Source: Arenicella chitinivorans (GTDB taxonomy: Bacteria; Pseudomonadota; Gammaproteobacteria; Arenicellales; Arenicellaceae). Taken from it: 64,000 nucleotides of DNA. Numbering within the stretch: position 1 is the first letter of the stretch; each line of letters starts with the position of its first letter. Both the position numbers and the translations under genes were made by a program. The notes under the pieces were generated by a model. That model did not search any database. It was given only the letters and a program-made list of their open reading frames with translations, and was not told the DNA's origin. The stretch is from positions 62,001 to 126,000 of the forward strand of contig NZ_BMXA01000004.1 in the NCBI RefSeq assembly GCF_014651515.1. Reading direction: 5' to 3'. This document shows positions 3,635 through 20,400 of this stretch, piece after piece.

Positions 3635-6505
3635 ATGACTTCATACGTTCTTAACGGCGGCAAGACCAAGCTTGCTTGTGCCGTTTCGTCAGCGCTGTCA
3701 CCGGTCTCAGCATCGCGCTCTGCGATGTTGGGTATGCTGGTGTGTGGTGCGATGATTGCGCCAGGTACGACCTTCGCTCAATCCGACGAACTAGAAACTC
3801 TGGAAGAAATCGTCGTTACCGGCTACCGCAGTAGTTTAGCACGCGCCACTGATTTGAAGCGAAACGCCAGCGGCGTCGTTGACGCGATTTCAGCCGAAGA
3901 TATCGGCGTATTCCCTGACACCAACCTCGCTGAGTCCCTGCAACGTATCACCGGTGTTTCAATCGACCGTTCACGCGGTGAAGGGAGCCAAGTTACGGTT
4001 CGTGGCTTCGGCCCTGAATTTAACCTAGTCACACTGAATGGCCGTCAAATGCCAACTCATAATGGCGATAATCGTTCATTCGATTTTGCAGATTTGGCAT
4101 CCGAGGGTATTGCTGGTGTGCAAGTGTATAAAACGGGTGTTGCCGACGTACCAACTGGCGGTATTGGTTCAACCATTAATATCCAGACTGCACGTCCATT
4201 AGATGCACCAGGCATGAAGTCTGTCGTGTCTTTGAAGGCGGTACACGACACGTCCACCACAAAAGGCGACGACCTGACCCCAGAAGTTTCAGGTATTTAT
4301 AGCAACACATTCGCAGATGACACGATTGGTATCGCCATTGCTGGTAGCTATCAAAAACGTGACAACGGCGTCAACACAGGCACGGTAGGTGACTACAACA
4401 ACTTCCCAGGAACTGCCGACCAAGATTGGGCGGCTGGTACCGCAGCATGGGGCGGCCTACCACGCGATGAGAACCAAATTAATCGTCCAGCGGATTCGGA
4501 TATCTACGCAGTACCACAAAGCGTTGGTTATGAGATCGCCGAGTTCTCGCGTGAGCGTATTAACGGTCAATTAGCTTTGCAATGGCGCCCAAATGACAGC
4601 GTCACAACCACCTTAGACTATTTCTACTCAGAAGTTGATTTTGAGCGTACCTTTAACAATTACTCCGGTTGGTTCAACTTCGCTGGCGTGCAGTCTACGT
4701 ACTCCGACGGTCCGGTTGCTTCACCACTGATCTACACAGAAGTTAACTCTGCAACTGATTTCGCAATGGCTGCAGGTCGCGACGGTACTCGCACTGAGAA
4801 CAACTCTCTGGGCTTGAATGTTGAATGGCAAGTTAACGATAAACTGGCGTTAGAATTTGACTTTCATAGTTCAGAAGCCGAGCGCGGTGCTAGCGGAAAT
4901 AACGGTACAGCGTCGCAATTGGCGATTGCCAGTTTTACCCGTCAACGCACTACGGCGTATCTGAATGGTGAGCTGCCAATCCTTGAGTTGGACTTAACTG
5001 GACCACTTAGCGCCGACGACATGATCGTGACCGGCAGCGTGTTTGATAACGAAGCGGCCAAGATGGAGATTCAACAGCTGTCGGCTGGCGGTGCCTATGA
5101 GTTTACTGACACCACATCAATCGATTTCGGTGTGCAGCTGACTGAGGTAGACAATCGATCGCAATTTTCGAACGTACAACGCGACACCTGGGGCGGCACA
5201 ACTCAAGCTGGTGACATCGCTGACCTGTTAACCCCGGCATCAGCGGCTGACGCCTTTGACCAACTCTCTAACGGAAACGATTCACGTCGTCAAACCCAGT
5301 TCTTCGTGTTTGATATCGACGCGCTGATCGCGCGCACCGAAGCACTTGGTGCCACACAGTCTACCGGCGGTGATTGCGGTACTGGTTTATGCCCTAGCAG
5401 CAACTTCACGACGGACCGTATCACCGAAGAAGATTCCTCCGCAGCATACATCCAGGTTAATCTTGATCGCCAACTTGGGGATATTCCCGTCAGAATCAAA
5501 GCTGGATTACGTTATGAGGAAACCGACGTAGTCTCGCAAGCCTTAGTTCCAGTCTATGCGTCGGTGGTGCAACAAAGCGATAACGAGTTCTCAGCGATTC
5601 AAGCAGTGGATGCCAACGGCGCGGTTGTTCAGGATTTTACCCGTCTAACCGGCGAATACGACTTTATTCTACCCAACTTGGATATCCGGTTTGATTTGAC
5701 CGACAACGTTGTGGCGCGGGCGTCGTATAGCGAAACAATTACACGTCCAAGCTTTGTAGACATCCAAGGCGGCCTGACGATCAATTCTTTGATTCGTGTA
5801 AGCGGTGGTAACGGCAATTCGGGCAACCCGGACCTGGATCCACTGGAGTCTAAAAACATCGACCTGTCTCTCGAGTACTATTTCGGCGGTAGTGATTACG
5901 CGTCGGTTGGCTACTTCAATAAAGACGTTAAAAACTTTATTGGTACGGCGATTTTCCAAGACCAAGTGCTGTTTCCAGGTTTGATTCATCCTGCCACAGG
6001 CGCGCCAGTCACGTTTGACGTAACTGCCCCGGTGAACAATGAAGATTCAAGCATTGATGGTTGGGAAATTGCGGTTCAAAAGACATTTGGCGACAGTGGT
6101 TTTGGTGTAATCGCCAATGCAACGATCGTGAACGGTGATCTGGAGTATGAGCCAACGAGTCTCGACACACAGTTTGTACTTCCAGGCTTAAGCGATTCTG
6201 CGAACCTGATTGGTTTCTATGAGAACGATCGCTTCCAAGCGCGCCTGATGTACAACTGGCGTGATGACTTTTTCAATGGAATCGCCGGTTCAGCAGCGGC
6301 TACACCAGGCCCGGTGAATGTCTCATCCTTTGGTCAATGGGACGTAAATATTCGCTACGTCGTGAGTGATAACTTGACGGTCTTCTTGGAGGGTCTGAAT
6401 ATCACAGAAGAAACAGTACGCACCTATGGTCGTGATGAACTTCAGGTTATTCAAGCGCTGCAAACCGGCGCTCGTTACAACTTGGGCGTGCGCTACGAAT
6501 TCTAA
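3635..6505 (+). CDS. TonB-dependent outer-membrane receptor (Xanthomonas/Caulobacter-type)
   Basis: A 956-residue outer-membrane receptor. An unusually long N-terminal leader ends near residue 48 (TTFAQS). The TonB-box region LEEIVVTGYRSSL follows, then a plug domain with the typical ITGVSIDRSRGEGSQVTVRGFG stretch, and a beta-barrel ending in an aromatic residue (YNLGVRYEF). The plug wording matches the TonB-Xanth-Caul subfamily, which commonly imports oligosaccharides. Its neighbours (GH16 genes, halogenases, SapC, cupins) suggest a beta-glucan oligosaccharide as cargo, which is inference. A GAGAGG ribosome site lies 8-10 nt before the ATG. Three consecutive hairpins follow the stop. Confidence 0.95.
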   Translation: MTSYVLNGGKTKLACAVSSALSPVSASRSAMLGMLVCGAMIAPGTTFAQSDELETLEEIVVTGYRSSLARATDLKRNASGVVDAISAEDIGVFPDTNLAESLQRITGVSIDRSRGEGSQVTVRGFGPEFNLVTLNGRQMPTHNGDNRSFDFADLASEGIAGVQVYKTGVADVPTGGIGSTINIQTARPLDAPGMKSVVSLKAVHDTSTTKGDDLTPEVSGIYSNTFADDTIGIAIAGSYQKRDNGVNTGTVGDYNNFPGTADQDWAAGTAAWGGLPRDENQINRPADSDIYAVPQSVGYEIAEFSRERINGQLALQWRPNDSVTTTLDYFYSEVDFERTFNNYSGWFNFAGVQSTYSDGPVASPLIYTEVNSATDFAMAAGRDGTRTENNSLGLNVEWQVNDKLALEFDFHSSEAERGASGNNGTASQLAIASFTRQRTTAYLNGELPILELDLTGPLSADDMIVTGSVFDNEAAKMEIQQLSAGGAYEFTDTTSIDFGVQLTEVDNRSQFSNVQRDTWGGTTQAGDIADLLTPASAADAFDQLSNGNDSRRQTQFFVFDIDALIARTEALGATQSTGGDCGTGLCPSSNFTTDRITEEDSSAAYIQVNLDRQLGDIPVRIKAGLRYEETDVVSQALVPVYASVVQQSDNEFSAIQAVDANGAVVQDFTRLTGEYDFILPNLDIRFDLTDNVVARASYSETITRPSFVDIQGGLTINSLIRVSGGNGNSGNPDLDPLESKNIDLSLEYYFGGSDYASVGYFNKDVKNFIGTAIFQDQVLFPGLIHPATGAPVTFDVTAPVNNEDSSIDGWEIAVQKTFGDSGFGVIANATIVNGDLEYEPTSLDTQFVLPGLSDSANLIGFYENDRFQARLMYNWRDDFFNGIAGSAAATPGPVNVSSFGQWDVNIRYVVSDNLTVFLEGLNITEETVRTYGRDELQVIQALQTGARYNLGVRYEF

Positions 6506-6517
6506 ACGTACCCTTCT

Positions 6518-6638
6518 GTGGACTGATAAATTGTAATTCAATTTAATCGCGAATCAGTCCACCTTGGCGGCGGGTTTCGACCCGCCGAGAGGATAGCGCC
6601 AAGGTAGGCCCGACTTGCCTCAGCGCTATCCTTTTTTT
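6518..6638 (+). terminator. Three successive hairpins ending in a rho-independent terminator
   Basis: Hairpin 1 has 10-bp arms at 6518-6527 and 6553-6562, with a nested 6-bp stem 6528-6533/6539-6544. Hairpin 2 is an 8-bp GC stem 6568-6575/6580-6587 closed by a TTCG tetraloop. Hairpin 3 has 10-bp arms at 6590-6599 and 6623-6632, followed by a run of T. The last is a standard intrinsic terminator; the first two could protect the receptor mRNA 3' end or limit read-through into the halogenase gene. Confidence 0.85.
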
Positions 6639-6676
6639 TAGTTCTCTTTTTATAACGATTAGCCTATTGTAGCGCT

Positions 6677-8236
6677 ATGCATCAAACCATGAATAAAGTC
6701 GTCATCGTCGGCGGCGGCACCGCAGGCTGGTTGACCGCAGGTGTTTTAGCTGCGCGTTATCAGGCGGGCGAGCACGGTGTTGAGGTGGTTCTGATTGAAT
6801 CACCGGATGTGGCCACAATCGGCGTTGGGGAAGGCACTTGGCCCTCTATGCGTGCCACACTTCAGTCAATTGGCGTGTCCGAAGCTGCGTTTATTCGAGA
6901 ATGCGATGCCAGCTTTAAACAAGGTTCGTGTTTTCAAGGTTGGCGCAATGGCGGCGATAATCGTTACTATCATCCTTTCTCACTACCGCAAGGCTACAGC
7001 GAGCTTAATTTAGCGCCATTTTGGCAACCCCAAGCCGAGCAAATCAGCTTTGCCGATGCCGTTTCACAACAAAGCAGACTGTGTGAACTTGGCCTAGCAC
7101 CCAAACAGGTATCGACGCCGGAATTTGCTTTTATACAGAATTACGGCTACCACCTCGACGCAGGCAAATTCGCCGATTTTTTGACACGACACTGCGTATC
7201 AAAACTTGGCGTCACCCATATTCGCGATCACGTCGTGGATGTGATACCGGACCAGAGCGGCTATATCCAAGAAATCAAAACACAGCAACACGGCGAACTA
7301 CGCGGCGATATGTTCGTCGATTGTACTGGTTTCAGCAGCGTGCTCATCGGGCAGCATTATCAGGTGCCCATGCAGTCCATACAGCCGTATTTATTTAATG
7401 ATCGAGCGCTGGCAGTACAGCTACCGTATACCGACCCCAACGCGCCTATTGCGTCTGCAACGCTGGCCACCGCACATTCGGGCGGTTGGATCTGGGATAT
7501 TGGGTTACCTTCTCGACGCGGAGTAGGTGCGGTATATGCCAGTGACTTTATGCGCGATACCGAGGCAGAAGCGGCATTAATGACGTATCTGAGCAAACAA
7601 GTCGGTGCGACTATTGCGCAACAATTGACACCACGCACCATCAAATTTAACCCTGGTTATCGCGAACGATTCTGGCATAAGAATTGTGTCGCAATTGGAC
7701 TATCTGCCGGCTTCGTTGAGCCGTTAGAAGCTTCCGCGCTGGTGATGGTGGAGTTTGCCGCCAAAATGCTGGCCGAGCAGTTACCTGCAAACCGCGAGAC
7801 CATGATCATCACGGCAAAACAGTTTAATGAGAAATTTAATTATCGCTGGCAGCGTATTGTGGAGTTTCTCAAACTGCACTACGTCTTAAGCCAACGAAAT
7901 GACTCGGAATATTGGTTGGCCCACCGCCAGACTGAAACAGTGCCGGACACCTTGCAAGCATCTCTCGATTTATGGCGCTACCAACCACCCTGGCATCTCG
8001 ATACGCCGTATATCGATGAACTGTTCCCAGCCGCCAGTTATCAATATATTCTGTACGGTATGGGGTTTGTCACTGACACAGAAACACGCCGAATTCGACA
8101 ACATGATGCGATGCAAACGAAAGCACATCAGTTGTTTCGCGAAAATGCCCAACGAACTCAACAACTCGCATCCGGCCTGCCTGACAATCGATCATTGATA
8201 GAACACATCAGGCAGTCAAAATGCGCCACACCATAA
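6677..8236 (+). CDS. Flavin-dependent tryptophan-halogenase family protein
   Basis: A 519-residue protein of the tryptophan halogenase family (FADH2-dependent halogenation of aromatic substrates). The FAD-binding GGGTAGW lies at residues 12-18. A lysine at residue 81 (SFKQG) matches the essential lysine of PrnA-type enzymes, and GFVEPLEAS is the conserved glutamate region. The usual W-x-W-x-I-P motif reads WIWDIG near 273-278, with the final Pro replaced by Gly. It is the first gene after the TonB receptor terminator and overlaps or nearly abuts the SapC gene. These locus-associated halogenases have no proven substrate, so activity on free tryptophan should not be assumed. An alternative ATG lies four codons in. 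Confidence 0.88.
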   Translation: MHQTMNKVVIVGGGTAGWLTAGVLAARYQAGEHGVEVVLIESPDVATIGVGEGTWPSMRATLQSIGVSEAAFIRECDASFKQGSCFQGWRNGGDNRYYHPFSLPQGYSELNLAPFWQPQAEQISFADAVSQQSRLCELGLAPKQVSTPEFAFIQNYGYHLDAGKFADFLTRHCVSKLGVTHIRDHVVDVIPDQSGYIQEIKTQQHGELRGDMFVDCTGFSSVLIGQHYQVPMQSIQPYLFNDRALAVQLPYTDPNAPIASATLATAHSGGWIWDIGLPSRRGVGAVYASDFMRDTEAEAALMTYLSKQVGATIAQQLTPRTIKFNPGYRERFWHKNCVAIGLSAGFVEPLEASALVMVEFAAKMLAEQLPANRETMIITAKQFNEKFNYRWQRIVEFLKLHYVLSQRNDSEYWLAHRQTETVPDTLQASLDLWRYQPPWHLDTPYIDELFPAASYQYILYGMGFVTDTETRRIRQHDAMQTKAHQLFRENAQRTQQLASGLPDNRSLIEHIRQSKCATP

Positions 8237-8265
8237 CAACTAAAACAAACAATACATACAATGCT

Positions 8266-8988
8266 ATGAGCAATTTTGAACTACTCAATCCAGCGCAACA
8301 CAGCGATCTGAAGGTCATCACAGAACGCTCTGCCGACTACGGAGATGCCGTCAATTATGTCATGACGTTTCCGTTTGAATTTCGCAATATTCAGCATTGT
8401 TACCCGATCTTTTTTCAAAAGGATGCCACCAGTAGTGCGTTCTTCCCGATTGCCTTACTCGGTTTTGAGCAGAATGAGAATTTGTTCCTAGATAATCCCG
8501 GCTGGAATGCCCCGTATGTGCCGCTGATGATCCGTCGACAGCCATTTCTGATTGGCTATCAAACCGATGCAAATGATCCGAACCAACGTAATCCAATGGT
8601 ATCCATCGACATGGATAACCCCAGGGTCAACGAAACCGACGGAGAAGCGTTGTTTTTGGAGCACGGCGGCACCAGTGACTTCTTGCAACAAGCCACTGAA
8701 TCACTAGAACTGATCCACCAAGCACATGAACATAGCGCCAAGTTTATGGCGAAACTCGCTGAGCTCGAACTGCTCGAAGCATTTTCGATGACGGTCAAGC
8801 TAAACAACGGCAGTGAAAATCAGCTGTTGGGCTTTTACACCTTGAATGAGGAGAAAGTACAAAACTTGTCAGGTGATGTGTTATCGCAGCTCAACCAACA
8901 AGGTTTTTTGCAGCCGCTTTTTATGGTTATCGCGTCGCACTCCTGTGTGAGCGACTTAGTCGAGCGCAAGAATAAACAAGTGGCATAA
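8266..8988 (+). CDS. SapC family protein
   Basis: A 240-residue cytoplasmic protein matching the SapC family that accompanies TonB receptors and tryptophan halogenases in polysaccharide loci. Features include FELLNPAQHSDLKV at the N-terminus, FPFEFRNIQHCYPIFF and SVDL-like core strands. I chose ATG 8266 (MSNFELL...) because family members start this way. An earlier in-frame ATG at 8221 overlaps the halogenase stop and would add 15 unusual Thr/Asn-rich residues. SapC was named from a surface-layer gene cluster in Campylobacter, but its role in these loci is unknown. It lies 20 bp before the cupin gene, suggesting one transcript. Confidence 0.85.
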   Translation: MSNFELLNPAQHSDLKVITERSADYGDAVNYVMTFPFEFRNIQHCYPIFFQKDATSSAFFPIALLGFEQNENLFLDNPGWNAPYVPLMIRRQPFLIGYQTDANDPNQRNPMVSIDMDNPRVNETDGEALFLEHGGTSDFLQQATESLELIHQAHEHSAKFMAKLAELELLEAFSMTVKLNNGSENQLLGFYTLNEEKVQNLSGDVLSQLNQQGFLQPLFMVIASHSCVSDLVERKNKQVA

Positions 8989-9008
8989 AGCTACCCCAAA
9001 TAGAACCA

Positions 9009-10019
9009 ATGTCCATCGCAATCAAGTCAATTTCCGAAATCAGCGTAACGGGGGCAGATGCACTGCCAGCGTATATTTTTGACGCCAAGGAACCGCTTGT
9101 ACTGCGAGGACTGGCAAGCGACTGGGAGATCGTCTCGGCCGCTCATGGTTCGGATAAACACGTCGCGGACTATCTACTGAATTTTGATCAGGGAACACCG
9201 CTTACGGTGTATCAGGGCAACCCTGAAATTAAGGGACGTATTTTTTATAACGAGTCGATGACCGGCTTTAATTTCGAGCGCACGCGACAAACCATGTCGG
9301 CGGTGCTGGCCGCCTTGTTTGCCGAAGCGGATGATGCGGAACCCAACACGTATTACGTGGGATCAACTCTGGTAGATCGATGGCTGCCCGGTTTTCGCGC
9401 TCACAATGACCTGCCTATTGGTCATCGCGAGCACCTGACCAGCCTGTGGTTCGGAAACCGCAGCCTGATTGCTGCACACTACGATGTACCAAGCAATATT
9501 GCCGTGTGTGCCGCCGGGCGTCGCCAATTTACTTTGTTTCCACCTGAACAAGCTGAGAATCTGTACATAGGGCCGCTCGATTTAACGCCATCCGGTCAGC
9601 CGATTAGTCTGGTTAATGCCGATGCACCAGAACTGGATCAGTTTCCTAAGTATCGCACGGCACTTCAGGCTGCATGTCAGGCGACACTCGAACCAGGCGA
9701 CGCGATCTTCATACCAAGCATGTGGTGGCATCAAGTGAAGTCACTCGACGCCTTTAATGTGCTAGTGAACTATTGGTGGCGCGCGACACCAGCCTATATG
9801 GGCGCACCCTTGAATGCCCTACAACATGCGGTATTAAGTATTCGCGAACTACCGCCAGAACAACGCGTCGTATGGCGCGATATTTTCGAACGCTATGTGT
9901 TCGCCGCAACGGAACAGGACTGGAGCCACATTCCTAAGCATGCACGCGGCGTTCTGGACGACATTGATGAAGCGCGCGCACAAAGCATACGAGCACAGCT
10001 GCGCCGATTCCTGCAATAG
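9009..10019 (+). CDS. Cupin-like (JmjC/FIH-type) putative 2-oxoglutarate/Fe(II) oxygenase
   Basis: A 336-residue cupin_8-type protein. The iron-binding facial triad is visible: H157 and D159 (AAHYDVPSN), and a distal H241 (MWWHQVKSL). The AAGRRQFTLFPPEQ and GDAIFIPSMWWH strands are typical of the family. Family members hydroxylate protein or peptide side chains using 2-oxoglutarate; in TonB/halogenase loci the target is not known. It is closely spaced with SapC upstream (20 bp) and halogenase downstream (35 bp), so it is probably co-transcribed. A paralogue of the same length is encoded on the other strand at 11550-12560. Confidence 0.85.
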   Translation: MSIAIKSISEISVTGADALPAYIFDAKEPLVLRGLASDWEIVSAAHGSDKHVADYLLNFDQGTPLTVYQGNPEIKGRIFYNESMTGFNFERTRQTMSAVLAALFAEADDAEPNTYYVGSTLVDRWLPGFRAHNDLPIGHREHLTSLWFGNRSLIAAHYDVPSNIAVCAAGRRQFTLFPPEQAENLYIGPLDLTPSGQPISLVNADAPELDQFPKYRTALQAACQATLEPGDAIFIPSMWWHQVKSLDAFNVLVNYWWRATPAYMGAPLNALQHAVLSIRELPPEQRVVWRDIFERYVFAATEQDWSHIPKHARGVLDDIDEARAQSIRAQLRRFLQ

Positions 10020-10054
10020 GCGGGCGGCAACGATATTTAAGCAAGAGGGTTAAC

Positions 10055-11545
10055 GTGGATTATCAGAAAATTAAACGAGTTGTTATTGCGGGCGGGGGAA
10101 CCGCTGGCTGGATGGCAGCAGCATCTTTAGCCAAACTGTTAGGCAAGAATCTGGATATCTCACTGATCGAATCCGACGACATCCCGACTGTCGGCGTCGG
10201 TGAAGCAACCATTCCAACCATGCTCACGCTGCACGAATTGCTAGGCATCAATGAACGCGAGTTCATGGCCGAAGTCAACGGCACCTTTAAGCTCGGCATT
10301 GCATTCGAAAGCTGGCGCGATGTCGGTAAAGATTATATTCACTCCTTTGGGTTTACTGGTAAAGATTGCTGGGCAGCCGGCTTTCAACACTTTTGGCTCA
10401 AAGGCCAGCAACTCGGCATTGCCAAAGACTTTGGGCAATACTGTGCAGAATTGCTGGCCGCACAGCAAAATCGCTTCGCCGTGATGCCGAAAGGTGGCCT
10501 GAATTATGCCTACCACATCGATGCTGGCCGCTACGCCGGTTTTCTCCGACGTTTAGCAGAGAAACACAACGCCAAACGGATCGAGGGCAAGATTGTCAGC
10601 GTTAACCTGCACAACGAAACGGGCTTTATCGAATCATTGACACTGGCTTCGGGAAAAGTCATCGAAGGCGACCTGTTTATTGACTGTAGTGGCTTTCGTG
10701 GACTGCTGATCGAACAAGCGCTGCACACCGGCTACGATGATTGGTCACATTGGCTGCCATGCGATTCTGCTATCGCAGTACAGACCGAGTCAGTCGGCCC
10801 ACCCATTCCGTATACGCGCTCGATCGCCCGTGAATCTGGGTGGCAGTGGCGCATACCACTACAAACTCGCGTCGGCAATGGCCTGGTGTTCTGTAGCCGC
10901 TATATGTCGGATGACGAAGGCATCCAACAACTGCTGGATAATATCGAAGGCAAACCGATTAACGAACCTCGTGTGATCAAATTCCTTACTGGAACGCGAC
11001 GTAAGCACTGGAATAAAAACTGCATTGCGATGGGGCTTTCCAGTGGCTTTATTGAGCCGTTGGAATCCACCAGTATTCACCTGATTCAGCGCAGCATTAC
11101 TCGTTTGATGCAGATGTTCCCCTACGACGGTATTCGCCAGCCCGATGTCAACGAATTCAATACGCAGATGCACGCCGAGATCATCAATATCCGCGATTTT
11201 ATTGTGCTGCACTACCATGTTACAGAACGTACCGACTCGCCGTTCTGGCGCTTCTGCCGCTCGATGGATATTCCGGATTCGTTGCGTCACCGCATTGAAT
11301 TGTTCAAACAAACTGGCCGTGTGTTTAAGGTGCCAACCGAATTATTTGGTGAGAATTCGTGGACACAGGTTATGCTAGGGCAGGGTTTGATGCCGGAGCA
11401 ATATCATCCGATTGTTAATATGATGTCGGACGACGAGTTGAAGAACTTTCTGAACGGCATCGATCAAACGGCAAATAATTTGGTGAAGCAACTCCCGCAG
11501 CACCAGGAGTTTATCAACCACTATTGCAAAGCATCCGCGATGTGA
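10055..11545 (+). CDS. Flavin-dependent tryptophan-halogenase family protein (second copy)
   Basis: A 496-residue tryptophan halogenase homologue starting at GTG 10055, preceded by an AGAGGG ribosome site. GGGTAGW at 13-19 binds FAD, and K79 (TFKLG) sits at the same number as the essential PrnA lysine. The W-x-W-x-I-P motif is canonical (WQWRIP, about 263-268), and GFIEPLEST carries the conserved glutamate. By motif integrity it is the more orthodox of the two halogenases here. It is the last gene of the rightward receptor-associated group; an opposing cupin gene ends 5 bp downstream. Substrate unknown. Confidence 0.9.
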   Translation: MDYQKIKRVVIAGGGTAGWMAAASLAKLLGKNLDISLIESDDIPTVGVGEATIPTMLTLHELLGINEREFMAEVNGTFKLGIAFESWRDVGKDYIHSFGFTGKDCWAAGFQHFWLKGQQLGIAKDFGQYCAELLAAQQNRFAVMPKGGLNYAYHIDAGRYAGFLRRLAEKHNAKRIEGKIVSVNLHNETGFIESLTLASGKVIEGDLFIDCSGFRGLLIEQALHTGYDDWSHWLPCDSAIAVQTESVGPPIPYTRSIARESGWQWRIPLQTRVGNGLVFCSRYMSDDEGIQQLLDNIEGKPINEPRVIKFLTGTRRKHWNKNCIAMGLSSGFIEPLESTSIHLIQRSITRLMQMFPYDGIRQPDVNEFNTQMHAEIINIRDFIVLHYHVTERTDSPFWRFCRSMDIPDSLRHRIELFKQTGRVFKVPTELFGENSWTQVMLGQGLMPEQYHPIVNMMSDDELKNFLNGIDQTANNLVKQLPQHQEFINHYCKASAM

Positions 11546-11549
11546 TCGC

Positions 11550-12560
11550 CTAAGTTAATCGCTCACGCAAGTACGCCAACACTGTTGCACGCTGATCAGC
11601 CGACATCTGGGTTGTGACATCGTGCAACGCTGGCGGTAGGTGGTCCACCGGGTCGCCTGTCTGATGGAACACAAAATAGTCAAATAACGCGCGCCAGGCT
11701 TCGCGTTGCGCTGCCGGTAAGCGCGCCATTGACATCATACTGTGCATCATACTGGCATTGGGCGATAAACCGTTTTCAACCTGTCCGCCCCACCAGTAGT
11801 TGATCAGAATGTTCAGGTCTTCCAACGCTTCGACCGCATGCCACCAGGCCGCAGGCATATAAATCGCATCACCCGGTGCAAGTTCAGCCTGCTGAGCGTT
11901 GTCTAAGGCTATTTCGAATCGAGGAAAGCGTGTTAGGTCCGGGGCACATAAATTCACCAGACTGATTGGCACACCACCAGGCGAATTCAGCATCGGCCCG
12001 ACATACAGGTTTGCCACCTGCTCAGGCGGAAACAAGGTAAAACGTCGACGGCCAGCCACTACAGCGGCAATATTTAGGTCAGCGTCGTAGTGCGGTGCCA
12101 CCAACGCGCGATTGCTAATCCACATGGTCGGCTTCACCGACGCTGGCAGTAAGGCCATTGGGTGCGTGTCGCGCATACCCGGAAATACGGTTTCGACATC
12201 CGCCGCCTGGATTGCGATGGCATGTGGCGCAGATTGAGTTCGCATTGCCAACAATTGATCCAACGTTGGCGCAAGTTCCGCCTGGACACTTTTAAAATTC
12301 ACACCGGAAAGATCATCCGCATAGGAAAACGCACCCTGTATCTCCGGCTGACCAACCACCGTGAACGCACTGTGTTTTCCCGCATAGGACTTAAGAAAAT
12401 CCACAACAGATTGATCATCTTGTTGTGATTTTTCGACAATCGGCCAGTCACCAACGAGTCCACGCATGACGGCGGGCTGCTGAATTGGCAATATTTCATG
12501 CTCAAACGTTCGCTGATCTACATTGTGCCATTCCGTGATCGGATTAAGTTTTTGATGCAT
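11550..12560 (-). CDS. Cupin-like (JmjC/FIH-type) putative 2-oxoglutarate/Fe(II) oxygenase, second copy
   Basis: A 336-residue paralogue of the cupin at 9009-10019. The metal motif is kept (PHYDADLN, then AAWWHAVEAL), as is the VAGRRRFTLFPPEQ strand. The start is ATG 12560 (MHQKLNPITEW); the frame extends seven codons further to a TTG, which is less likely. It is transcribed against the halogenase operon and away from the malectin-GH16 gene, so it may share a divergent control region (12561-12743) with that enzyme. Substrate unknown. Confidence 0.85.
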   Translation of the reverse strand: MHQKLNPITEWHNVDQRTFEHEILPIQQPAVMRGLVGDWPIVEKSQQDDQSVVDFLKSYAGKHSAFTVVGQPEIQGAFSYADDLSGVNFKSVQAELAPTLDQLLAMRTQSAPHAIAIQAADVETVFPGMRDTHPMALLPASVKPTMWISNRALVAPHYDADLNIAAVVAGRRRFTLFPPEQVANLYVGPMLNSPGGVPISLVNLCAPDLTRFPRFEIALDNAQQAELAPGDAIYMPAAWWHAVEALEDLNILINYWWGGQVENGLSPNASMMHSMMSMARLPAAQREAWRALFDYFVFHQTGDPVDHLPPALHDVTTQMSADQRATVLAYLRERLT

Positions 12561-12743
12561 AAGGACGCGCCTGATAAACAATCACAATTGGGCTAAGCAT
12601 ACGCCATCAGTTACGCACCTCGCGTATAAATTGCCGAATTCTAGGTTAGTTAGTCGCCGTGCAATCCAACGCTTTTTATAGTGTTGATCTGTGTGCTCAC
12701 TCAGTGAGTCACTTCTGTATCCACCTATTTGGAGCTAACAATA

Positions 12744-14084
12744 ATGACAATAAAACGATTAACTCAACGCCTAATATGTACCGGCTTGCTCACTGCCTCC
12801 TGCGTAAGTGTGGCGCAAACGCCAATCGATGAGACTGTGCAATTGGCAATCAATTATGGCGGCCCGGCGCACCATGGCGCAGATGGCATTGCCTATCAAG
12901 CCGACAATATTCATAACGGCAAGGTCGGCACAGTCGCGGACATTCGCGGCGCACAAGATCCCACCATCTTTCATACCTATCGAACTGGCGAAGTAGACCT
13001 TAGCTACCCATTAGACAATGGCGAGTACACCGTAACGCTGAGTTTTACCGAACCAGACGATGTAGCGGTTGGCGATCGCGTATTCGACGTGTTGATTGAA
13101 GGCGAGATGGTGATTCCAAACTTTGACATCTACCAGGCACGTGGCACAACCGCCAAAATGGCCGTGGTGTGGTCAATCCCGGCAGTCACAGTGCAAGATG
13201 GTCAGCTCGACATCCAACTTACAGCCGTTAAGGGAGAGCCGGTGGTGAGTGCGCTCGCCGTTCGCACGACACCACCTAAACGCGATGATTGGGAGCTGGT
13301 ATGGCAGGATGAATTTGACTATGAAGGTGCACCAGACCCCACAAAGTGGACGCACGATATCTGGCCAGCGGGCAAGGTCAATCAAGAAGATCAGGCCTAC
13401 ACGGATCGATTAAAGAACGTTCGCGTTGAAAACGGCATGTTGGTGATCGAGGCCCATAAGGAGCAATACGACAATGCCGAGTATACGTCAGGGCGTATTC
13501 ACTCTGCGGGCAAGGGCGACTTACTCTATGGGCGGGTTGATGTACGCGCCAAGCTGCCATATGGGCAAGGCACTTGGCCTGCGATCTGGATGTTGTCGAC
13601 CAACCCATTCAAGTATGCAACTAATTGTAAAACTGCCGCTGAGTGGCAGGGCAATAATAAGTGCGATGCCTGGCCCAACTCCGGCGAAATTGACATCATG
13701 GAGCATGTTGGCTACGACATGAACCGGGTACATGGCACCGTACATACCAAAGCTTACTACTGGGTCATTGGTAAACAACGTCAAGCCACGATTGAAGCCG
13801 ACAATGTCGACAAGCAATTTCATCTTTATAGCCTGATATGGTCACCAACGCGTATCGATATTCTGTATGACAACCAGCCATACTTTACGTACTTGAACCC
13901 GAATGAAGGTTGGGAAGGCTGGCCGTTTGATCACCCATTTCATGTCATCTTGAACATCGCCATGGGTGGCGGTTGGGGCGGCGCTGGTGGCCCTACCAAT
14001 GATTCGATATTGCCAGCGCGTATGTTGGTCGACTACGTGCGCTTGTATCAATTACCGGAACACCTAACCAAACCAGCAAAATAA
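12744..14084 (+). CDS. Secreted malectin-GH16 beta-glucanase
   Basis: A 446-residue secreted enzyme. The signal peptide ends near residue 25 (VSVAQT). A malectin-like carbohydrate-binding domain (~33-175, INYGGPAHHGADGIAYQAD) precedes a GH16 catalytic domain (~185-435). The catalytic strand GEIDIMEHVG gives nucleophile E315, D317 and acid/base E320. MGGGWGGAGGP and MLVDYVRLYQ close the fold. Start ATG 12744 is favoured by a GGAG ribosome site at 12731-12734; an upstream TTG would add five residues and overlap that site. The enzyme probably cleaves beta-1,3 or mixed-linkage glucan. A malectin domain in front of GH16 suggests oligosaccharide or chain-end binding (inference). Confidence 0.9.
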   Translation: MTIKRLTQRLICTGLLTASCVSVAQTPIDETVQLAINYGGPAHHGADGIAYQADNIHNGKVGTVADIRGAQDPTIFHTYRTGEVDLSYPLDNGEYTVTLSFTEPDDVAVGDRVFDVLIEGEMVIPNFDIYQARGTTAKMAVVWSIPAVTVQDGQLDIQLTAVKGEPVVSALAVRTTPPKRDDWELVWQDEFDYEGAPDPTKWTHDIWPAGKVNQEDQAYTDRLKNVRVENGMLVIEAHKEQYDNAEYTSGRIHSAGKGDLLYGRVDVRAKLPYGQGTWPAIWMLSTNPFKYATNCKTAAEWQGNNKCDAWPNSGEIDIMEHVGYDMNRVHGTVHTKAYYWVIGKQRQATIEADNVDKQFHLYSLIWSPTRIDILYDNQPYFTYLNPNEGWEGWPFDHPFHVILNIAMGGGWGGAGGPTNDSILPARMLVDYVRLYQLPEHLTKPAK

Positions 14085-14170: not shown

Positions 14171-17100
14171 CTACAAGGATTCCAAAAAGCGTAACAACGC
14201 GTTCTTATCGCTGGCCGACAAGGCTTGGTAATTTGCACGAGAATTCGCACCTTCACCGCCATGCCATAAGATGGCTTCTTCAATTGATCTAGCCCGCCCA
14301 TCGTGCAGATACGCGTGATGCGGCGTACAGATTTCACCACCTTCCGCACCACTTGGATTGGTAACACCACCGGTGACGCAGGCGTGTAAACCAAGGCCCC
14401 ATAATGGCGTGGTCCGCCACTCACGACCGCTGGCATCGCCTTCACCTAGATTATCTGCCAGGCCATCGCCCATATCGTGCAACAACATATCGGAATACGG
14501 GTGAATCGTCTGGTTCCGCGCTTCGGCCATCGGGTGATACGGGCTGGTTTGCAACGTTGGTGTATGACACCCAGCGCAACCGGTATTACTGAATACTTGC
14601 TTACCATAGACGATGGTTTGGTCTTCGAAACCCGATTCCCAACCGCGCTGCGGTCGTACACCCAAACCAGTCAGGTAAGTCACCAGCTTATCGATCTCAG
14701 CGTCCGGCAACATAGCGTTGTTGTTACTACAGCCTGACTGATTCGAACCACAATCCAAGTTTGGCATGAGCGACGTACGAACACCCATATCGGTATTCAG
14801 TGCCGACACCACTTGATGACGGATACTGCTGGTTCCGGCCTTCCAGCCAAAACGCCCGATGCGCGTGATCTGAGGATTGGCTGGATCCGCGACGCGATTT
14901 GCACGCCCTGAAATGCCATCGCCATTAACATCATTCGGATCTTCCAAGCTCTCTATCGTGGATTCAGGAATCGCCTCCAACAAACCAAGACCAACCAAAC
15001 GTGGTGCGATACGCGCCGAAAAACGCGCTGGCGCGCCATTCTGGAACTGGTAGTTTGGTGCGCGTAGGCCATTTGCCACATTGGACCAGAATGCAATTGA
15101 GACTTCGCCTTCACCAGTGCCACCAACTCGGCGTGGTTGTAAGACCTTGCCGTACTGCGGATGCGGATTGCCATTGGCGTCGGCCGTTTTGAATACCCAG
15201 CGATCGAGCAGCTCATTATTTGGCGCCACTGGGGCACCACCATTACGCTCGTGGCAACCACTGCAACTGGCTTTGATGTATGGCTGACTTCCCGCTAACC
15301 CGGCTACTGTATTTAACACGCCATTTTCTGGGTCCTCATCGTGCTGACCATCAATAAATGAAGAGTGCAAAATTCGACGGCCTTCGAGGAATTTCTGACC
15401 ATTCCCGTAACCGAGGTTGGTCGCCATTTGCATAAAGTGATCATTCGGCTCATCGGTGTACTGGTAATGAATGGTGGTGTTACCACCCAACCAATAAGAG
15501 GCCGGAATTTCGCGGCTGTCTTCCTGGAATTCACCACCACCCGGAACAAATTCACCGGCGTTTTCGGTGTACCACGGCACAATACCTTTACCGACGATAT
15601 ACAGAAAGGTGGTGCCGTAGTAATTGGCTTGGCCACGTGGGATATCGTTGCGACTGAACTGCGATATCTCGAATTCCAAGCGGTCGCCATTGCGGATCTC
15701 GCGATTGAACTGACGATTCAGATTGTCGGACTTAGTGTAGTTGTAGTACGTGCCGTCAAACCCAACGTACTGCATAATGCCACCGCCACTGTATTCAGCC
15801 ACGGTATTACGTCCGAGGTACCACCAACGATTCTCAGCTTCGGAATCACTGAGCGGCCACAGGGTACGCACATTCATGGTGATGGTGTCACCACCTTTGG
15901 CTACGGTGTCAATGATTTCGATATTGCTGGCGCGGTGCTCAAAATAAAACTTGATGTAGTGATCGTAGGATTGGAACTGATCTTCTCGCGCATGGCGAGT
16001 TCGTGGTCGATCAGAGAAACGTGTTATTAGCGCGCTGCCGGTGTCGACTTGCGTGTCGGGCTCCAGCGGTGTGCTGCTGTTGTACAAGGGTGTCACGGTC
16101 GATGGTGGCGGAGTGGTCACCGGGCATCCATTTGCATCCACCTGGGTTCCTGGCGCGGTGTTGGGGCATTGATCGCTGCTGTCCGGGACACCGTCATTGT
16201 CGGAATCCGGATCGCTCGGGCCGTTGCTTAAGGTGCCGAATACGCGCATCTCAAAGATTGAATAGCCCCAATCATTCCCCGCACTGCGTGCGGTACCATA
16301 CATACGCAGGTAACGATAACTGCCATTCACCGTCAGATCATCAGTACGATCGCCAACCTGACCGCCGCTGTAGGTATACAGTGGCGTCCAACTACTGTCA
16401 TTGTTGGAGCCTTGAATCTGGTAGTTCGCGGCATTTGCATACTCCCAATCGATGCTCACGGCACTGATATCATAGGTTGCACCAAGATCAACTCGCAACC
16501 AACTTGGGTCTGTCTGAAAATTAGACTCCCAACGCGTGGTCGGATCGCCATCGAAGGCCAGTCCGGCGGCTTGCAAGGTGGTACTACCAATGGCAGATTT
16601 ACCCAAGGCGATGTTGTTATTGCTCGGCGCCAAACTACCATATACCTTAAATTCATAGATTGAGTAGCCCCAATCATTCCCAGCACTGCGCGTGAGCCCA
16701 TACATACGTACGTAGCGAAATGTGCCGCTCACCGCATGGGTGTCAGTGCGATCACCAAAACTACCGCCGGTCGCGTCATTCAGCACACTCCAATTGTTGC
16801 CGTCATTCGAGCCTTGCACCTGATAGTGCGCTGCGTTGGCTGCTTCCCAATCGATCGTGACACTCGACAGAGCATACGCAGCACCCAGATCCAACATCAG
16901 CCAACTGGGGTCGGTATTGAAATTTGATTCCCAGCGGGTACTGCCATCGCCATCAACCGCCAGTGATGCAGCTTGCAAGTTCGTGCTCCCAATCGCATTA
17001 CTGCCCAAGGCAATATTGTTCCCAGATGGCGGTGGCGGCGGTGCCGCATCTTGATGCGTATAGGTTTTTACTGCGGTATCAAATGCGCCATTGGCACCCG

Positions 17101-17416
17101 TATCCCAGTAGGTAAACCAATACGTAATCTGATCCTGATTGTTTAAACCGCTGATATCGAGGCGGTTCACGCCATTCACAACCGGCATTCGCACATTCTG
17201 TTGTGGGCCGCTGTTAATCAGATAGTGTGCATCGGCCCAGGCCGACGTATTGATGTAGAGCTGCGCAGTGTCGCCATTGATGTGAACTGTACCGTTGTCG
17301 GCGTTTTGTGCGTGTGCTGCACTCATCGCGCATAGCAACGCAAACAGAATCGCGATTACGCGACTCGGATTGGTGCGCTGTGAGTTAGTCAGCGACTTGG
17401 ATAATAAACTGATCAT
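14171..17416 (-). CDS. Secreted di-haem peroxidase-like (DHOR family) protein with CBM56 and two discoidin modules
   Basis: A 1081-residue exported multidomain protein. The signal peptide ends near 36 (SAAHAQ). A CBM56-like beta-1,3-glucan-binding domain (~42-115, YINTSAWADAHYLIN) is followed by two F5/8 type C (discoidin) domains (~133-263, ~268-400). A thrombospondin-type-3 calcium linker (DPDSDNDGVPDSSDQCP) spans ~403-440. A C-terminal region (~480-1081) resembles di-haem oxidoreductases of the putative thiol/peroxidase DHOR family. Two c-type haem motifs are present, CSGCH near 717-721 and CAGCH near 947-951. The protein would sit outside the cytoplasm, bound to glucan, carrying out peroxide- or electron-transfer chemistry. 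It is encoded 143 bp after the modular laminarinase, on the same strand, and shares its binding modules. Confidence 0.85.
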   Translation of the reverse strand: MISLLSKSLTNSQRTNPSRVIAILFALLCAMSAAHAQNADNGTVHINGDTAQLYINTSAWADAHYLINSGPQQNVRMPVVNGVNRLDISGLNNQDQITYWFTYWDTGANGAFDTAVKTYTHQDAAPPPPPSGNNIALGSNAIGSTNLQAASLAVDGDGSTRWESNFNTDPSWLMLDLGAAYALSSVTIDWEAANAAHYQVQGSNDGNNWSVLNDATGGSFGDRTDTHAVSGTFRYVRMYGLTRSAGNDWGYSIYEFKVYGSLAPSNNNIALGKSAIGSTTLQAAGLAFDGDPTTRWESNFQTDPSWLRVDLGATYDISAVSIDWEYANAANYQIQGSNNDSSWTPLYTYSGGQVGDRTDDLTVNGSYRYLRMYGTARSAGNDWGYSIFEMRVFGTLSNGPSDPDSDNDGVPDSSDQCPNTAPGTQVDANGCPVTTPPPSTVTPLYNSSTPLEPDTQVDTGSALITRFSDRPRTRHAREDQFQSYDHYIKFYFEHRASNIEIIDTVAKGGDTITMNVRTLWPLSDSEAENRWWYLGRNTVAEYSGGGIMQYVGFDGTYYNYTKSDNLNRQFNREIRNGDRLEFEISQFSRNDIPRGQANYYGTTFLYIVGKGIVPWYTENAGEFVPGGGEFQEDSREIPASYWLGGNTTIHYQYTDEPNDHFMQMATNLGYGNGQKFLEGRRILHSSFIDGQHDEDPENGVLNTVAGLAGSQPYIKASCSGCHERNGGAPVAPNNELLDRWVFKTADANGNPHPQYGKVLQPRRVGGTGEGEVSIAFWSNVANGLRAPNYQFQNGAPARFSARIAPRLVGLGLLEAIPESTIESLEDPNDVNGDGISGRANRVADPANPQITRIGRFGWKAGTSSIRHQVVSALNTDMGVRTSLMPNLDCGSNQSGCSNNNAMLPDAEIDKLVTYLTGLGVRPQRGWESGFEDQTIVYGKQVFSNTGCAGCHTPTLQTSPYHPMAEARNQTIHPYSDMLLHDMGDGLADNLGEGDASGREWRTTPLWGLGLHACVTGGVTNPSGAEGGEICTPHHAYLHDGRARSIEEAILWHGGEGANSRANYQALSASDKNALLRFLESL

Positions 17417-17491
17417 CGGATACTCCTGTAGGGTTGACGAGTAATCTGTGTTGCCAGTGTGTAGTGGTTGGTCGGCGCCTCAGACCATGTA

Positions 17492-17537
17492 CCCGCCACA
17501 CGTTAGCCCAGGTAGATGAGCCAAAACTTGTGGCGGG
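17492..17537 (-). other. Intercistronic hairpin between laminarinase and di-haem gene
   Basis: Nine-bp perfect arms (17492-17500 and 17529-17537) enclose 28 nt, between the laminarinase stop (17560) and the next gene's start (17416). No U-tract follows on the transcribed strand, so it looks more like an mRNA-stability or partial-attenuation element than a full terminator. Confidence 0.45.
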
Positions 17538-17559
17538 CACTGAAGGTGAAAGACAGGGC

Positions 17560-20400
17560 TTATTGTGACCCTAAGACCTCCATTTCATAGATTGAATAGC
17601 CCCAGTTATTACCGGCACTTCGAGTGGTGCCGTTCATGCGGACCCAACGATAGTTGCCCGACACATTTAAGGTGTCAGTGCGTGCACCAAATTGCCCACC
17701 GCTGAAACTCGCGATGGTGGTCCACGTTGCGTTATCGTTGGATGCCTGTACGGTATACGCTTCTGCGTTGGCCGCTTCCCAGTGGATTGTTACTTGCGAC
17801 AGATTCGCACTGCCGCCAAGGTCGATCGTCAAGACACCGGGGTCCACATTGTGATTGGACTCCCAACGTGTGCTCGCATCACCATCAACCGCAAACGCCG
17901 CCGATTGCAACTGCGACGATGCCGTTGTTGACTTGTTCAGTGCCACATTCGTCGGTGTTGGACTGTTACCATGTACATAGGTCTGTGGCGCGGTGTCGAT
18001 TACCATATTGCTGACCGCGTCAAAGTAGGTAAACCAGTAGCTGACTTGGTCGCCCGACTGTAACCCAGTCAGATCGTAGGTGTTCACACCGTTGGCTTGC
18101 GTCATGCGCAAATTCTGTTGAGGTCCACCATTCTTATTGTAGTGCACATCTGCCCAGCCGCTGGTATTGACGAAGAACTGTGCCACGCTGCTCGTTTGCG
18201 CGCTGATGCCGTAGTCTTCGCCTTGGCTGACCGGGCAACCAGTGACATCCACGGTGGTACCTGCTGGCGTGTTCGGGCATTGGTCCGCCGCATCATCGAC
18301 ACCATCACCGTCTGAGTCACTTGGCTGTTGTGAGTTCAAGTTGAATTCAATCCAGTTTAGATTCACCGCATCACCCGTAATATCGACACGCACGGTGTAA
18401 GTCCCCGCTTGTGCGATGTTCACCTGACCCAGGTTATGGGTTTCATACACTTGCCAGCCGCCGGTCGAGGTAAATGCGTCGCTGCCGACCACATTGCCGT
18501 TCAAGCTGATTGTGTAGGACGGGCCACTGGCGTTATCGGTTGCGACACGTGCTAACAGATCATAGTCCCCAACGCCGAGTTCCACACTGTATTCCAACCA
18601 CTCACCTGCTGCGGTCCAACCCACGTTGTACGCGCCATTGGTGTCAGTCGTCGCCTCAATATCGACATCGTCGTTACGAGCTTCACCACCCGTGTTTCCG
18701 GCGGTTGTATCGAAATAGGCCACGTAATCCTGTGCTTGAATACGCTTAGTTTGTGGCGTGATCACAACGATCGGGCAACCATTAGCGTCGACTTGCGTAC
18801 CAGGAGCTGTGTTCGGGCAATTGTCATTGTCATCAATCACACCGTCCCCATCACTGTCGGCTGGTGGATTGCCGCCACCTTCGTAGACAATATTGTCGAT
18901 CGCATACTGAAAGGGTGCCGCAGGCAGGTTCGCACCGTCACTTGAGATGGCGAACATGTATTGCAACGACTGGATAGCGACTAGGTCACCGCGTAAATCC
19001 GCAACCGGGATTTCAACCTGGCCCCAGGCACCGTTTCTTACCAGTCCGTACTTAGTTTCAAAGGCCGGGAAGGTGATCCAATTTTCGTTGGTGTAGTTAT
19101 CTGTCACACCAATTCGGAACGAGACATTGGCCGGAATCTGGATATTGAGTTTCAAAACACCTTCGGCAAAGTTACTCATGTCTCGAGGCTGATTGGTCTG
19201 AACCCCACCGCCAAACCAAGTGTTTTGACTGTCGTAGCTCCAAGCAATCACGTTGTCACCTTCAAACGGTGCGATAGACCCTTCGCTGCTGGTTGGATCC
19301 CAGAGGAAGACGCTTGAATCCACACCCGGCTCGAGTTTATTGGTGGTCGGTGTGTTATCCGTAAAAACGCCAAAGGTACCGGTTTCTGGTGTGGTCAAAT
19401 CACCTTGAAACACTTCGCCGTGGCCGTTGTATTTGTAAATACGAATGTAGTCCACCAACATCTTGCCATTGTCTGGTGCCGTCACCTGACCCGCAGTCGC
19501 GGCGCTGGTGAAATTACCGCCAATCGCCATATTCATAATCAAATAAAATGGTGCGCGGAACGGGCCCTCATCAGAAAGCTCGATAGGCTCCTCGTACATA
19601 TCATGCTCGACCCCGTTGTCAATGACGGTAAAACGCAGACTCTCAGGCGTCCAATAGGTACGGTAAGTGACAAAACGATCGTTCAAGGGGACCGTCGATA
19701 CATACGCGTTGTCTGATTGCCAGGCCGTACTCGCAGCGCAGGTCTCATTGCCTGGAACACACGCCTGTTCTTCGTACGAAATTGCGTTGGCACCGGTAAA
19801 GTTGTTGATCGGTGGCGGGTCGGTTCGACCATCGTCGCTTGGATCATCATTGTGCGCATACCACTCAAGCCGAGCTTCGGTGCGATGCCCCATTTCCATC
19901 ATGTCAATCTCACCTTTACGTGGCCAGGGCAGGGTTGACGTACCCAACATCCAAACAGCTGGCCAGTAACCCGTGTCGAGATTCGGAATTTGCATACGGT
20001 ATTCAATCATGCCGTACTGCAGCGCCAGTTTGTTGGCCGAAAGTATCTTGCCGGAAGTAATCGGTCCGCCTGCTGGATGTTTAGCAATCAATTGTACGGC
20101 GGTATTCGTCGCTTGGCCCGGCGAAGGTTGGCCAGAGCTGATTGGCTCAATCGACACATTCGCTGTTTCATACGACTGCAACTCTTGATTGCCCCAACCG
20201 CACAAACCTTGCGCACAGCCGTTACCGACATCCACAGTCCAGACATCGCTGTTTAAGGTATCGAAATTGTCTGCCCAGAGTAATTCTCCGACTTGAGCTT
20301 GCGCAATCGCACTGAGCAGCCCCGAAGCCAGAATAAGAGATGAAGTCGCTACTCGCACAGATGTCTGTGCAGCGCGCGAGCGAGGTGATAGGTACTTCAT
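17560..20400 (-). CDS. Modular secreted laminarinase: GH16 - sandwich module - CBM6 - CBM56 - discoidin
   Basis: A 946-residue secreted endo-beta-1,3-glucanase. The signal peptide ends near 35 (SAIAQAQ). The GH16 domain (~37-330) has the catalytic strand GEIDMMEMGH (E164, D166, E169). Then come an ExoP-like galactose-binding module (~345-510), a type-3 thrombospondin linker, a CBM6-like domain (~535-690, RIQAQDYVAYFDT... and AAGEWLEYSV), a second calcium linker, a CBM56-like domain (~722-800, FVNTSGWADVHYNK) and a discoidin domain (~810-945). CBM6 and CBM56 both fit laminarin/beta-1,3-glucan binding. The start has an AGGAG site 8 nt upstream. It is first in a leftward unit with the di-haem gene. 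Confidence 0.92.
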   Translation of the reverse strand: MKYLSPRSRAAQTSVRVATSSLILASGLLSAIAQAQVGELLWADNFDTLNSDVWTVDVGNGCAQGLCGWGNQELQSYETANVSIEPISSGQPSPGQATNTAVQLIAKHPAGGPITSGKILSANKLALQYGMIEYRMQIPNLDTGYWPAVWMLGTSTLPWPRKGEIDMMEMGHRTEARLEWYAHNDDPSDDGRTDPPPINNFTGANAISYEEQACVPGNETCAASTAWQSDNAYVSTVPLNDRFVTYRTYWTPESLRFTVIDNGVEHDMYEEPIELSDEGPFRAPFYLIMNMAIGGNFTSAATAGQVTAPDNGKMLVDYIRIYKYNGHGEVFQGDLTTPETGTFGVFTDNTPTTNKLEPGVDSSVFLWDPTSSEGSIAPFEGDNVIAWSYDSQNTWFGGGVQTNQPRDMSNFAEGVLKLNIQIPANVSFRIGVTDNYTNENWITFPAFETKYGLVRNGAWGQVEIPVADLRGDLVAIQSLQYMFAISSDGANLPAAPFQYAIDNIVYEGGGNPPADSDGDGVIDDNDNCPNTAPGTQVDANGCPIVVITPQTKRIQAQDYVAYFDTTAGNTGGEARNDDVDIEATTDTNGAYNVGWTAAGEWLEYSVELGVGDYDLLARVATDNASGPSYTISLNGNVVGSDAFTSTGGWQVYETHNLGQVNIAQAGTYTVRVDITGDAVNLNWIEFNLNSQQPSDSDGDGVDDAADQCPNTPAGTTVDVTGCPVSQGEDYGISAQTSSVAQFFVNTSGWADVHYNKNGGPQQNLRMTQANGVNTYDLTGLQSGDQVSYWFTYFDAVSNMVIDTAPQTYVHGNSPTPTNVALNKSTTASSQLQSAAFAVDGDASTRWESNHNVDPGVLTIDLGGSANLSQVTIHWEAANAEAYTVQASNDNATWTTIASFSGGQFGARTDTLNVSGNYRWVRMNGTTRSAGNNWGYSIYEMEVLGSQ

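Follow-up and report, generated by a model that had tools for sequence, protein, structure and literature searches.

Two described enzymes come closest to the gene pair considered here. Lam16A (Sde_1393) of Saccharophagus degradans, 1,707 amino acids (aa) long, was given in 2008 as a chain of glycoside hydrolase (GH) family GH16, two carbohydrate-binding modules (CBMs) of family CBM6, four TSP3 repeats and a COG3488 domain described as 'thiol-oxidoreductase like' (PMC2386152, Table 3). A second listing gives GH16, two CBM6 and CBM56, and does not list the COG3488 domain (PMC3124978, Table 6). Lam16A is known as a table entry, and the words 'heme', 'cytochrome' and 'redox' are absent from the text of PMC2386152 as far as it is accessible. 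Xyn65 of Gilvimarinus xylanilyticus, described in 2022, is a secreted 1,3-xylanase with the order GH26-CBM31-CBM6-Big-DHOR, where DHOR stands for di-haem oxidoreductase, and ranked first in abundance (82.3%) among the four 1,3-xylanases of the 1,3-xylan secretome (PMC9638140). In the available part of that paper DHOR is said not to have been found previously in GHs, and an oxidoreductase activity on 1,3-xylan is proposed as one option. In this article we analyse a stretch of 64,000 nucleotides from Arenicella chitinivorans (contig NZ_BMXA01000004.1, positions 62,001 to 126,000; hereafter the window), in which the gene for a DHOR protein (14171-17416) lies beside that for a GH16 laminarinase. 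We take COG3488 and the DHOR family PF06537 (DUF1111) to be the same family.

The lytic polysaccharide monooxygenases (LPMOs) and their CBM-linked cytochrome partners offer a likeness in concept, since there too a redox protein is anchored to the polysaccharide next to a hydrolase. The original prediction for this locus, made from the sequence alone, knew of no described system with such a pairing; strictly this was wrong, as Lam16A (PMC2386152) and Xyn65 (PMC9638140) are in print. Among the literature matches listed, no paper was found that brings these two isolated cases together or that puts the haem domain to the test.

The MID-DHOR family and its hydrolase partners

The window protein served as the first query and a 19-row alignment covering MID and DHOR as the second; relatives were recovered in Microbulbifer, Teredinibacter, Paraglaciecola, Colwellia, Thalassotalea, Pseudoalteromonas and uncultured Pseudomonadales, and none were found in viral contigs. 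We define the MID-DHOR family, which occurs in marine bacteria, as proteins in which a MID domain is followed by DHOR and which stand apart from free DHORs on the tree. In a quick maximum-likelihood tree of 114 rows, some long branches of which leave parts unsure, the 106 MID-DHOR rows were split from eight DHOR-only control rows with SH-aLRT support of 100. MID scores were weak (30-60 bits) for L003-L005 and L155. Judged by its published description in the accessible text, Lam16A has the architecture of the fused members of this family.

In-frame fusion to a glycoside hydrolase was found in 31 of the 106 MID-DHOR proteins: 25 to GH16, every one with the ExDxxE motif, four to GH81 and two to GH3. 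When eight representatives were checked against Pfam, seven were confirmed (five GH16, one GH81 and one GH3); the GH16 of L181 was found by a custom profile and not by Pfam. A profile seeded with the N-terminus of L181 drifted, giving 307 hits, and was discarded. Custom profiles detected CBM56 in 48 of the 106 proteins, CBM6 in 45, F5/8C (discoidin) domains in 26 and a PF03640-type repeat in 45, and CBM56 was present in 26 of the 29 GH16 or GH81 fusions. The PF03640 'secreted repeat' sits between the CBMs and MID, for example at residues 1441-1483 of L160.

The same domains are found both fused and apart. In a genome of the same genus as the window, a single chain of 1,628 aa (L156) corresponds to both window genes, with 66.6% identity over 940 aa to the laminarinase in its N-terminal part and 76% over 820 aa to the DHOR protein. 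On the quick tree the fused or unfused state changes at least ten times, and the well-supported branches alone force six changes for the GH16 label. Repeated fusion and fission is a classic sign of cooperating activities, and the repeated joining and splitting of DHOR and hydrolase therefore suggests that the two work together. In L026 (5360-7709) the MID-DHOR frame is broken in the haem domain and a GH3-CBM6 frame lies directly upstream; the related L013 and L014 are single chains.

These proportions refer to a hand-picked, non-random sample, made up of 22 loci, four plasmid loci and 79 regions that favoured long frames. L198 yields two proteins, L159 (the stretch before the window) was left out, a fragment of the window gene (L001) was dropped, bringing 107 proteins to 106, and L026 was also dropped where neighbours were counted over 105 rows. 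Near-copies were counted separately: L006 shares 97% identity with the window gene, and L007 and L008, L022 and L211, and L024 and L210 are near-identical pairs. Any match (E ≤ 0.001) was found in 106 of 144 genomes of the Teredinibacter family and in 131 of 395 of the Colwellia family, with at least 77 and at least 50 full-length matches, respectively, counted by eye; many of the matches that were not full-length are DHORs without MID. The at least 127 full-length matches in both families include, again by eye, at least 34 long frames (14 above 1,450 aa and 20 above 1,300 aa), and all 27 of these that were examined carry GH16 (23) or GH81 (4). Teredinibacter sp. ISS155 shows a striking expansion to about ten MID-DHOR genes (seven full-length, two truncated at the ends of contigs and one divergent), whose products differ in their CBM sets.

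Proximity in the genome gives the same picture where the genes are separate. Among the 74 unfused MID-DHOR proteins, a GH16, GH81 or GH3 gene lies within 600 bp in 19 cases and within 8 kb in 30, whereas the same profiles found none at the 20 control loci, which have DHOR-only genes and were drawn from the same two families (Fisher 2.4e-4); with fusions included, the figures are 61 of 105 against 0 of 20 (Fisher 3.6e-7). These near-neighbour P values are too small, as related genomes were treated as independent. GH16 genes have a density of about one per Mb (102 Pfam matches in 20 MID-DHOR genomes), so that a GH16 gene within 8 kb is expected for about 1.6% and was seen for 26 of 74, the neighbour profile being more sensitive than the Pfam search behind the density, which likewise makes the computed P values too small. 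GH16 was also the commonest Pfam family (16) among 110 nearest-neighbour genes scanned; that scan left out genes more than 1.5 kb away or of fewer than 150 or more than 1,100 aa, as well as the loci L003-L006, L008, L022 and L026, and of the 117 genes then remaining seven were dropped for size.

The controls, hand-picked as the best-scoring DHOR-only matches of the two families (18 of 20 being full 19-kb regions), showed no GH16, GH81, GH3, CBM56, CBM6 or MID, and a single weak F5/8C match. Free-standing DHOR/DUF1111 proteins share with the window protein the CxxCH, EWRTxPLWG and LHDGRA motifs, but they are shorter, at about 450-520 aa, and in these 20 loci lack MID and the CBM56, CBM6 and hydrolase company. 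This comparison bears on the possibility that the window protein is an ordinary DHOR with a role in iron uptake, placed beside a laminarinase by chance. DUF1111 proteins do occur in imelysin and iron-uptake contexts, as the accessible part of one study reports (PMC3143127), and two plasmid matches (H7 and H8) overlap imelysin genes; yet 61 of 105 MID-DHOR loci have such hydrolases where the DHOR-only loci have none, and we regard this explanation as very improbable. The fusions, the neighbours and the clean controls together give strong support to a recurrent association with GH16, as opposed to an isolated coincidence at this locus.

The attachment to polymer-binding modules and hydrolases also bears on a second explanation, in which a tethered di-haem peroxidase would act as a shield, removing algal H2O2 and so protecting glucanase and cell. 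Algae release H2O2 in an oxidative burst that is triggered by laminarin fragments, DHOR has been named a putative peroxidase, and the haem domain at its C-terminus resembles bCcP/MauG. In Dinoroseobacter shibae the proteins induced by peroxide include a DUF1111 protein, according to the available part of that report (PMC8007024). A scavenger, however, needs no polymer binding, yet 84 of the 106 proteins carry a CBM, F5/8C or PA14 module, and fusion to a hydrolase chain would be unusual for one. Nor was a multi-haem electron donor found as a regular neighbour: a further open reading frame (ORF) with two or more CxxCH motifs lies within 5 kb of 7 of 105 MID-DHOR genes, and of 3 of 21 in the controls, where each is a second DHOR-like ORF. 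On balance we consider the shield unlikely. One candidate electron partner, an irregular neighbour, is a TPR protein with eight CxxCH motifs encoded 238 bp after a Teredinibacter MID-DHOR gene (L009, 12164-14527, plus strand).

Some neighbours point instead to an oxidase or dehydrogenase of chain ends, which would turn reducing ends or oligosaccharides into lactones or keto sugars and pass electrons outward or to a carrier. The two GH3 fusions would fit such a role, as would the location of two MID-DHOR genes next to genes for giant proteins, each of which combines glucose/sorbosone dehydrogenase, F5/8C and ThuA domains with two CxxCH motifs. Such an arrangement was, however, verified at only 2 of 105 loci, DHOR itself has no dehydrogenase cofactor domain, and we know of no di-haem c enzyme that oxidises sugars directly, so that this role too seems unlikely. 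The giant proteins (L151, 10700-15670, 1,656 aa; L197, 10664-15286, plus strand, 1,540 aa) contain F5/8C repeats, and one has a cytochrome match below cut-off; a similar-sized neighbour of another MID-DHOR gene (L199, 3843-8546, minus strand) is possibly a third.

Relatives beyond glucan

The pattern extends, more remotely, to 1,3-xylanases. A CBM31 search of the Teredinibacter family gave matches at E ≤ 0.001 in 15 of 144 genomes, and the five loci examined, those with the longest frames in that search, all encode proteins with CBM31 and a C-terminal DHOR with two CxxCH motifs. For L298, L301 and L302 Pfam confirmed CBM31 and DHOR, with GH26 over cut-off in L301 and L302 and none listed for L298. 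The DHOR part of these proteins is homologous to that of MID-DHOR (hhalign 99.9%). A MID domain in the region before the haems was considered and rejected, the comparison giving 0.4% despite a look-alike stretch. Xyn65 thus resembles the MID-DHOR fusions as a secreted endo-β-1,3-glycanase with CBMs and DHOR, as described in the available text (PMC9638140), and differs in having GH26 and CBM31 and acting on β-1,3-xylan; in the similar proteins L298-L302 the DHOR is remote from MID-DHOR and MID is unrecognised. One protein at L298 (1-3573, minus strand) has CBM31, PF03640 and DHOR but no GH match, and stands beside a CBM31-DHOR gene of the 1,3-xylanase type; this second protein of the locus repeats the targeted-DHOR pattern of the window pair.

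The binding module therefore seems to follow the polymer, CBM56 going with GH16 and GH81 and CBM31 with the 1,3-xylanase type, and from their sequences the common denominator of the hydrolase partners appears to be a β-1,3-linked polysaccharide. Both β-1,3-glucan and 1,3-xylan form triple helices. At 19 more loci, in which MID is diverged or unrecognised (L263-L281), all 20 DHOR proteins carry F5/8C and a GH16 ORF is nearby in three; a 501-base stub (L282) was left out of these 20 outer-subfamily regions.

The window protein and its haem domain

The window MID-DHOR gene (14171-17416, minus strand; ORF list, Pfam and sequence match to the family) encodes 1,081 aa with a signal-peptide-like start, as judged by eye. 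CBM56 occupies residues 43-114 (17075-17290; all features of the protein are on the minus strand) with a Pfam match to PF22184 of 4.1e-19 and 69 bits against a cut-off of 27. Two F5/8C domains follow, at residues 147-250 (16667-16978, PF00754) and 266-394 (16235-16621, matched by 4zy9, with PF22633 at 287-372). In the Pfam search of the whole protein F5_F8_type_C was found in two stretches at 7.5e-39 and F5_F8_type_C_2 at 9.8e-42, and the best match of both domains is the discoidin domain of the glucanase/chitosanase 4zy9 (5.7e-21). A TSP3-like linker (residues 402-421, 16154-16213; TSP_3 below the Pfam cut-off) leads to MID, a beta-sandwich without a Pfam name that is kept across the family (residues 441-640, 15497-16096), and then to DHOR (residues 641-1081, 14174-15496; PF06537 at 8.8e-61 and 206.3 bits against a cut-off of 22). 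Its two haem-binding motifs are CSGCH at 718-722 (15251-15265) and CAGCH at 947-951 (14564-14578), of which C718, C721, H722, C947, C950 and H951 are invariant in the family alignment. The order proposed in the original prediction, CBM56 and two discoidin domains ahead of two CxxCH motifs, is therefore borne out by Pfam and sequence, and domain search places the N-terminal region among carbohydrate-binding types.

The C-terminal half of DHOR aligns over 120 columns with CCP_MauG proteins taken from a search of eight MID-DHOR genomes (hhalign 97.7%), with GxxLF...CxxCH, DxG, TPLWG/VPSLRN and Y-x-H-D/N-G as common motifs. This homologous C-terminal haem domain links DHOR with bCcP/MauG, RoxA and 10S-DOX. 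The window protein differs from that superfamily in having no Pfam match to PF03150 (CCP_MauG) at E ≤ 1, and in the leucine that precedes HDG: L1037 is present in at least 95% of MID-DHOR proteins and in most control DHORs, whereas eight CCP_MauG proteins with an HDG-type motif have Met or Phe at this position. The fatty-acid di-haem enzymes PA2077 and PA2078 carry PYLHNGSV, and RoxA, which cleaves its polymer oxidatively, MauG and 10S-DOX are oxygenase-type members of the Ccp family, according to the accessible part of one report (PMC4496055). The leucine may be a hint, and no more, of oxygenase-like chemistry. When the core alignment was searched as a profile against solved structures, the only matches were short and of cytochrome type.

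Conservation of the haem domain also speaks to the idea that it has no chemistry of its own and stabilises or positions the hydrolase as a binding or scaffold module, an option offered for Xyn65, which showed xylanase activity when produced in E. coli; a haem measurement was not found in the available text (PMC9638140). Of the 106 MID-DHOR cores, 105 retain the two CxxCH motifs, the exception being the broken frame of L026. Conservation reaches at least 95% in 110 columns of DHOR, and 74 of these are common to at least 80% of free-standing control DHORs. Residues conserved specifically in MID-DHOR include R680, R681, H684, H692, E694 and N725. We consider a purely structural role distinctly unlikely.

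The surrounding locus

The laminarinase gene (17560-20400, minus strand, 946 aa) is the 5′ neighbour of the DHOR gene on the same strand and carries, by Pfam, GH16, CBM6, CBM56 and F5/8C together with an unnamed region, X330; an EIDMME motif is present. The sharing of module types between the two neighbours that had been predicted is thus confirmed. The 143-bp gap (17417-17559) has AGGAG ahead of the DHOR ATG, and no consensus promoter or terminator was found between the genes on their strand, although this negative is weak evidence; for these reasons the two genes are likely to be co-transcribed. A malectin-GH16 gene (12729-14084, plus strand, 451 aa; listed from TTG, with an ATG five codons inward) is convergent on the DHOR gene, and a GH16-Exop_C protein (21-2036, plus strand) is cut by the window start, its open frame being 895 aa in the genome. 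Between them (2095-12581) lie genes for an AraC-type regulator, a TonB-dependent receptor, two Trp_halogenase-family proteins, SapC and two Cupin_8 proteins. By gene content the surroundings of the pair are those of a laminarin-type locus, and all three PF00722 matches of the genome fall inside it, alongside its only PF06537 match.

The halogenase, SapC and cupin genes occupy 6677-12581, between the receptor and the glucanases, and Trp_halogenase recurs next to further members of the MID-DHOR family, as 5 of the 110 neighbour genes scanned. Further along the window, a 3,478-aa ORF (32292-42728, plus strand) has a weak right-handed beta-helix as its sole Pfam match at E ≤ 0.001. LPMOs (AA10) differ from the system described here: the three window proteins scanned by Pfam gave no LPMO_10 match at E ≤ 1, and the DHOR protein carries motifs for c-type haem where an LPMO has its copper site. 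The remark that no LPMO is visible holds for the locus as far as it was scanned, but not for the genome, which has one PF03067 (LPMO_10) match on a different contig.

Discussion

Coupling of MID-DHOR to β-1,3-glycan breakdown is, on the evidence of architecture and gene neighbourhood, very probable. We stop short of a firmer statement, since the GH16 and GH3 families are broad and β-1,3-glycan is only a putative substrate for the separate neighbours. Within this, the reading we favour is that the window protein would be an exported, β-1,3-glucan-targeted di-haem oxidoreductase that shares its polymer with the laminarinase encoded beside it, a reading to which we assign a probability of roughly 0.45; that the haem domain oxidises the β-1,3-glycan directly is, in our estimate, a prospect slightly short of even. 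For the original prediction of a redox enzyme on the glucan surface, this means that the glucan-type modules and the recurrent laminarinase pairing are strongly supported, whilst oxidative chemistry or peroxide handling is plausible only.

Several observations, besides the breadth of the hydrolase families, weigh against the favoured reading. No GH16, GH81 or GH3 is fused or within 8 kb in 44 of 105 MID-DHOR loci, and both GH3 fusions have CBM6 but no CBM56 match. The family is rare in the order of the window, with a full-length match in 3 of 109 genomes including its own; a draw from its class gave 2 of 369, its own and one of the same genus. MID appears to resemble CBM56 in fold only: for the MID model CBM56 5t7a ranks first (Z 8.4, root-mean-square deviation 2.5 over 93 residues) with unrelated beta-sandwiches at about 7, and VIA-align puts CBM56 first for both structure models (Z 8.0 and 8.4), near generic beta-sandwich scores. 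Foldseek gave no match for either model at E ≤ 0.001, and the comparison of MID with the CBM56 sequence profile was negative (hhalign 0.4%). An AlphaFold2 model of residues 442-1081 (19 sequences) has a mean pLDDT of 47.1 in the haem core, and we make no active-site claim from it. Recombinant Xyn65 gave 76.9 U/umol on 1,3-xylan compared with 91.9 for the DHOR-less Xyn80, by the accessible part of the report (PMC9638140). Among the literature matches listed, as far as their text was available and with most subscription journals outside the search, none dealt with the whole family or with the activity of a DHOR.

In the mechanism we propose, the CBM56 and discoidin domains would keep the haem domain attached to β-1,3-glycan in its insoluble or triple-helical form. 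One haem, the N-terminal one by analogy with bCcP, where this is the reactive haem, would react with H2O2 or O2, and the C-terminal bCcP/MauG-like haem would relay electrons. The oxidant could then attack C-H bonds of the sugar or chain ends that have just been formed, and the hydrolase would meet a looser polymer; LPMOs have this effect on cellulose and chitin, with copper where the present protein would use haem.

More tentatively still, MID-DHOR and its 1,3-xylan cousins could form a haem-dependent class of polysaccharide-oxidising enzymes for β-1,3-linked glycans, a haem counterpart of LPMOs. Such a class might serve laminarin, curdlan-type glucan and 1,3-xylan, with the hydrolase in the same chain or adjacent. 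There is a real chance that the family represents a new enzyme class, and we know of no dedicated oxidative enzyme for β-1,3-glucan. In marine algae laminarin is one of the major storage polysaccharides, and a redox module chained to three hydrolase families, and distantly to xylanases, may represent a step that is missing from models of algal carbon turnover.

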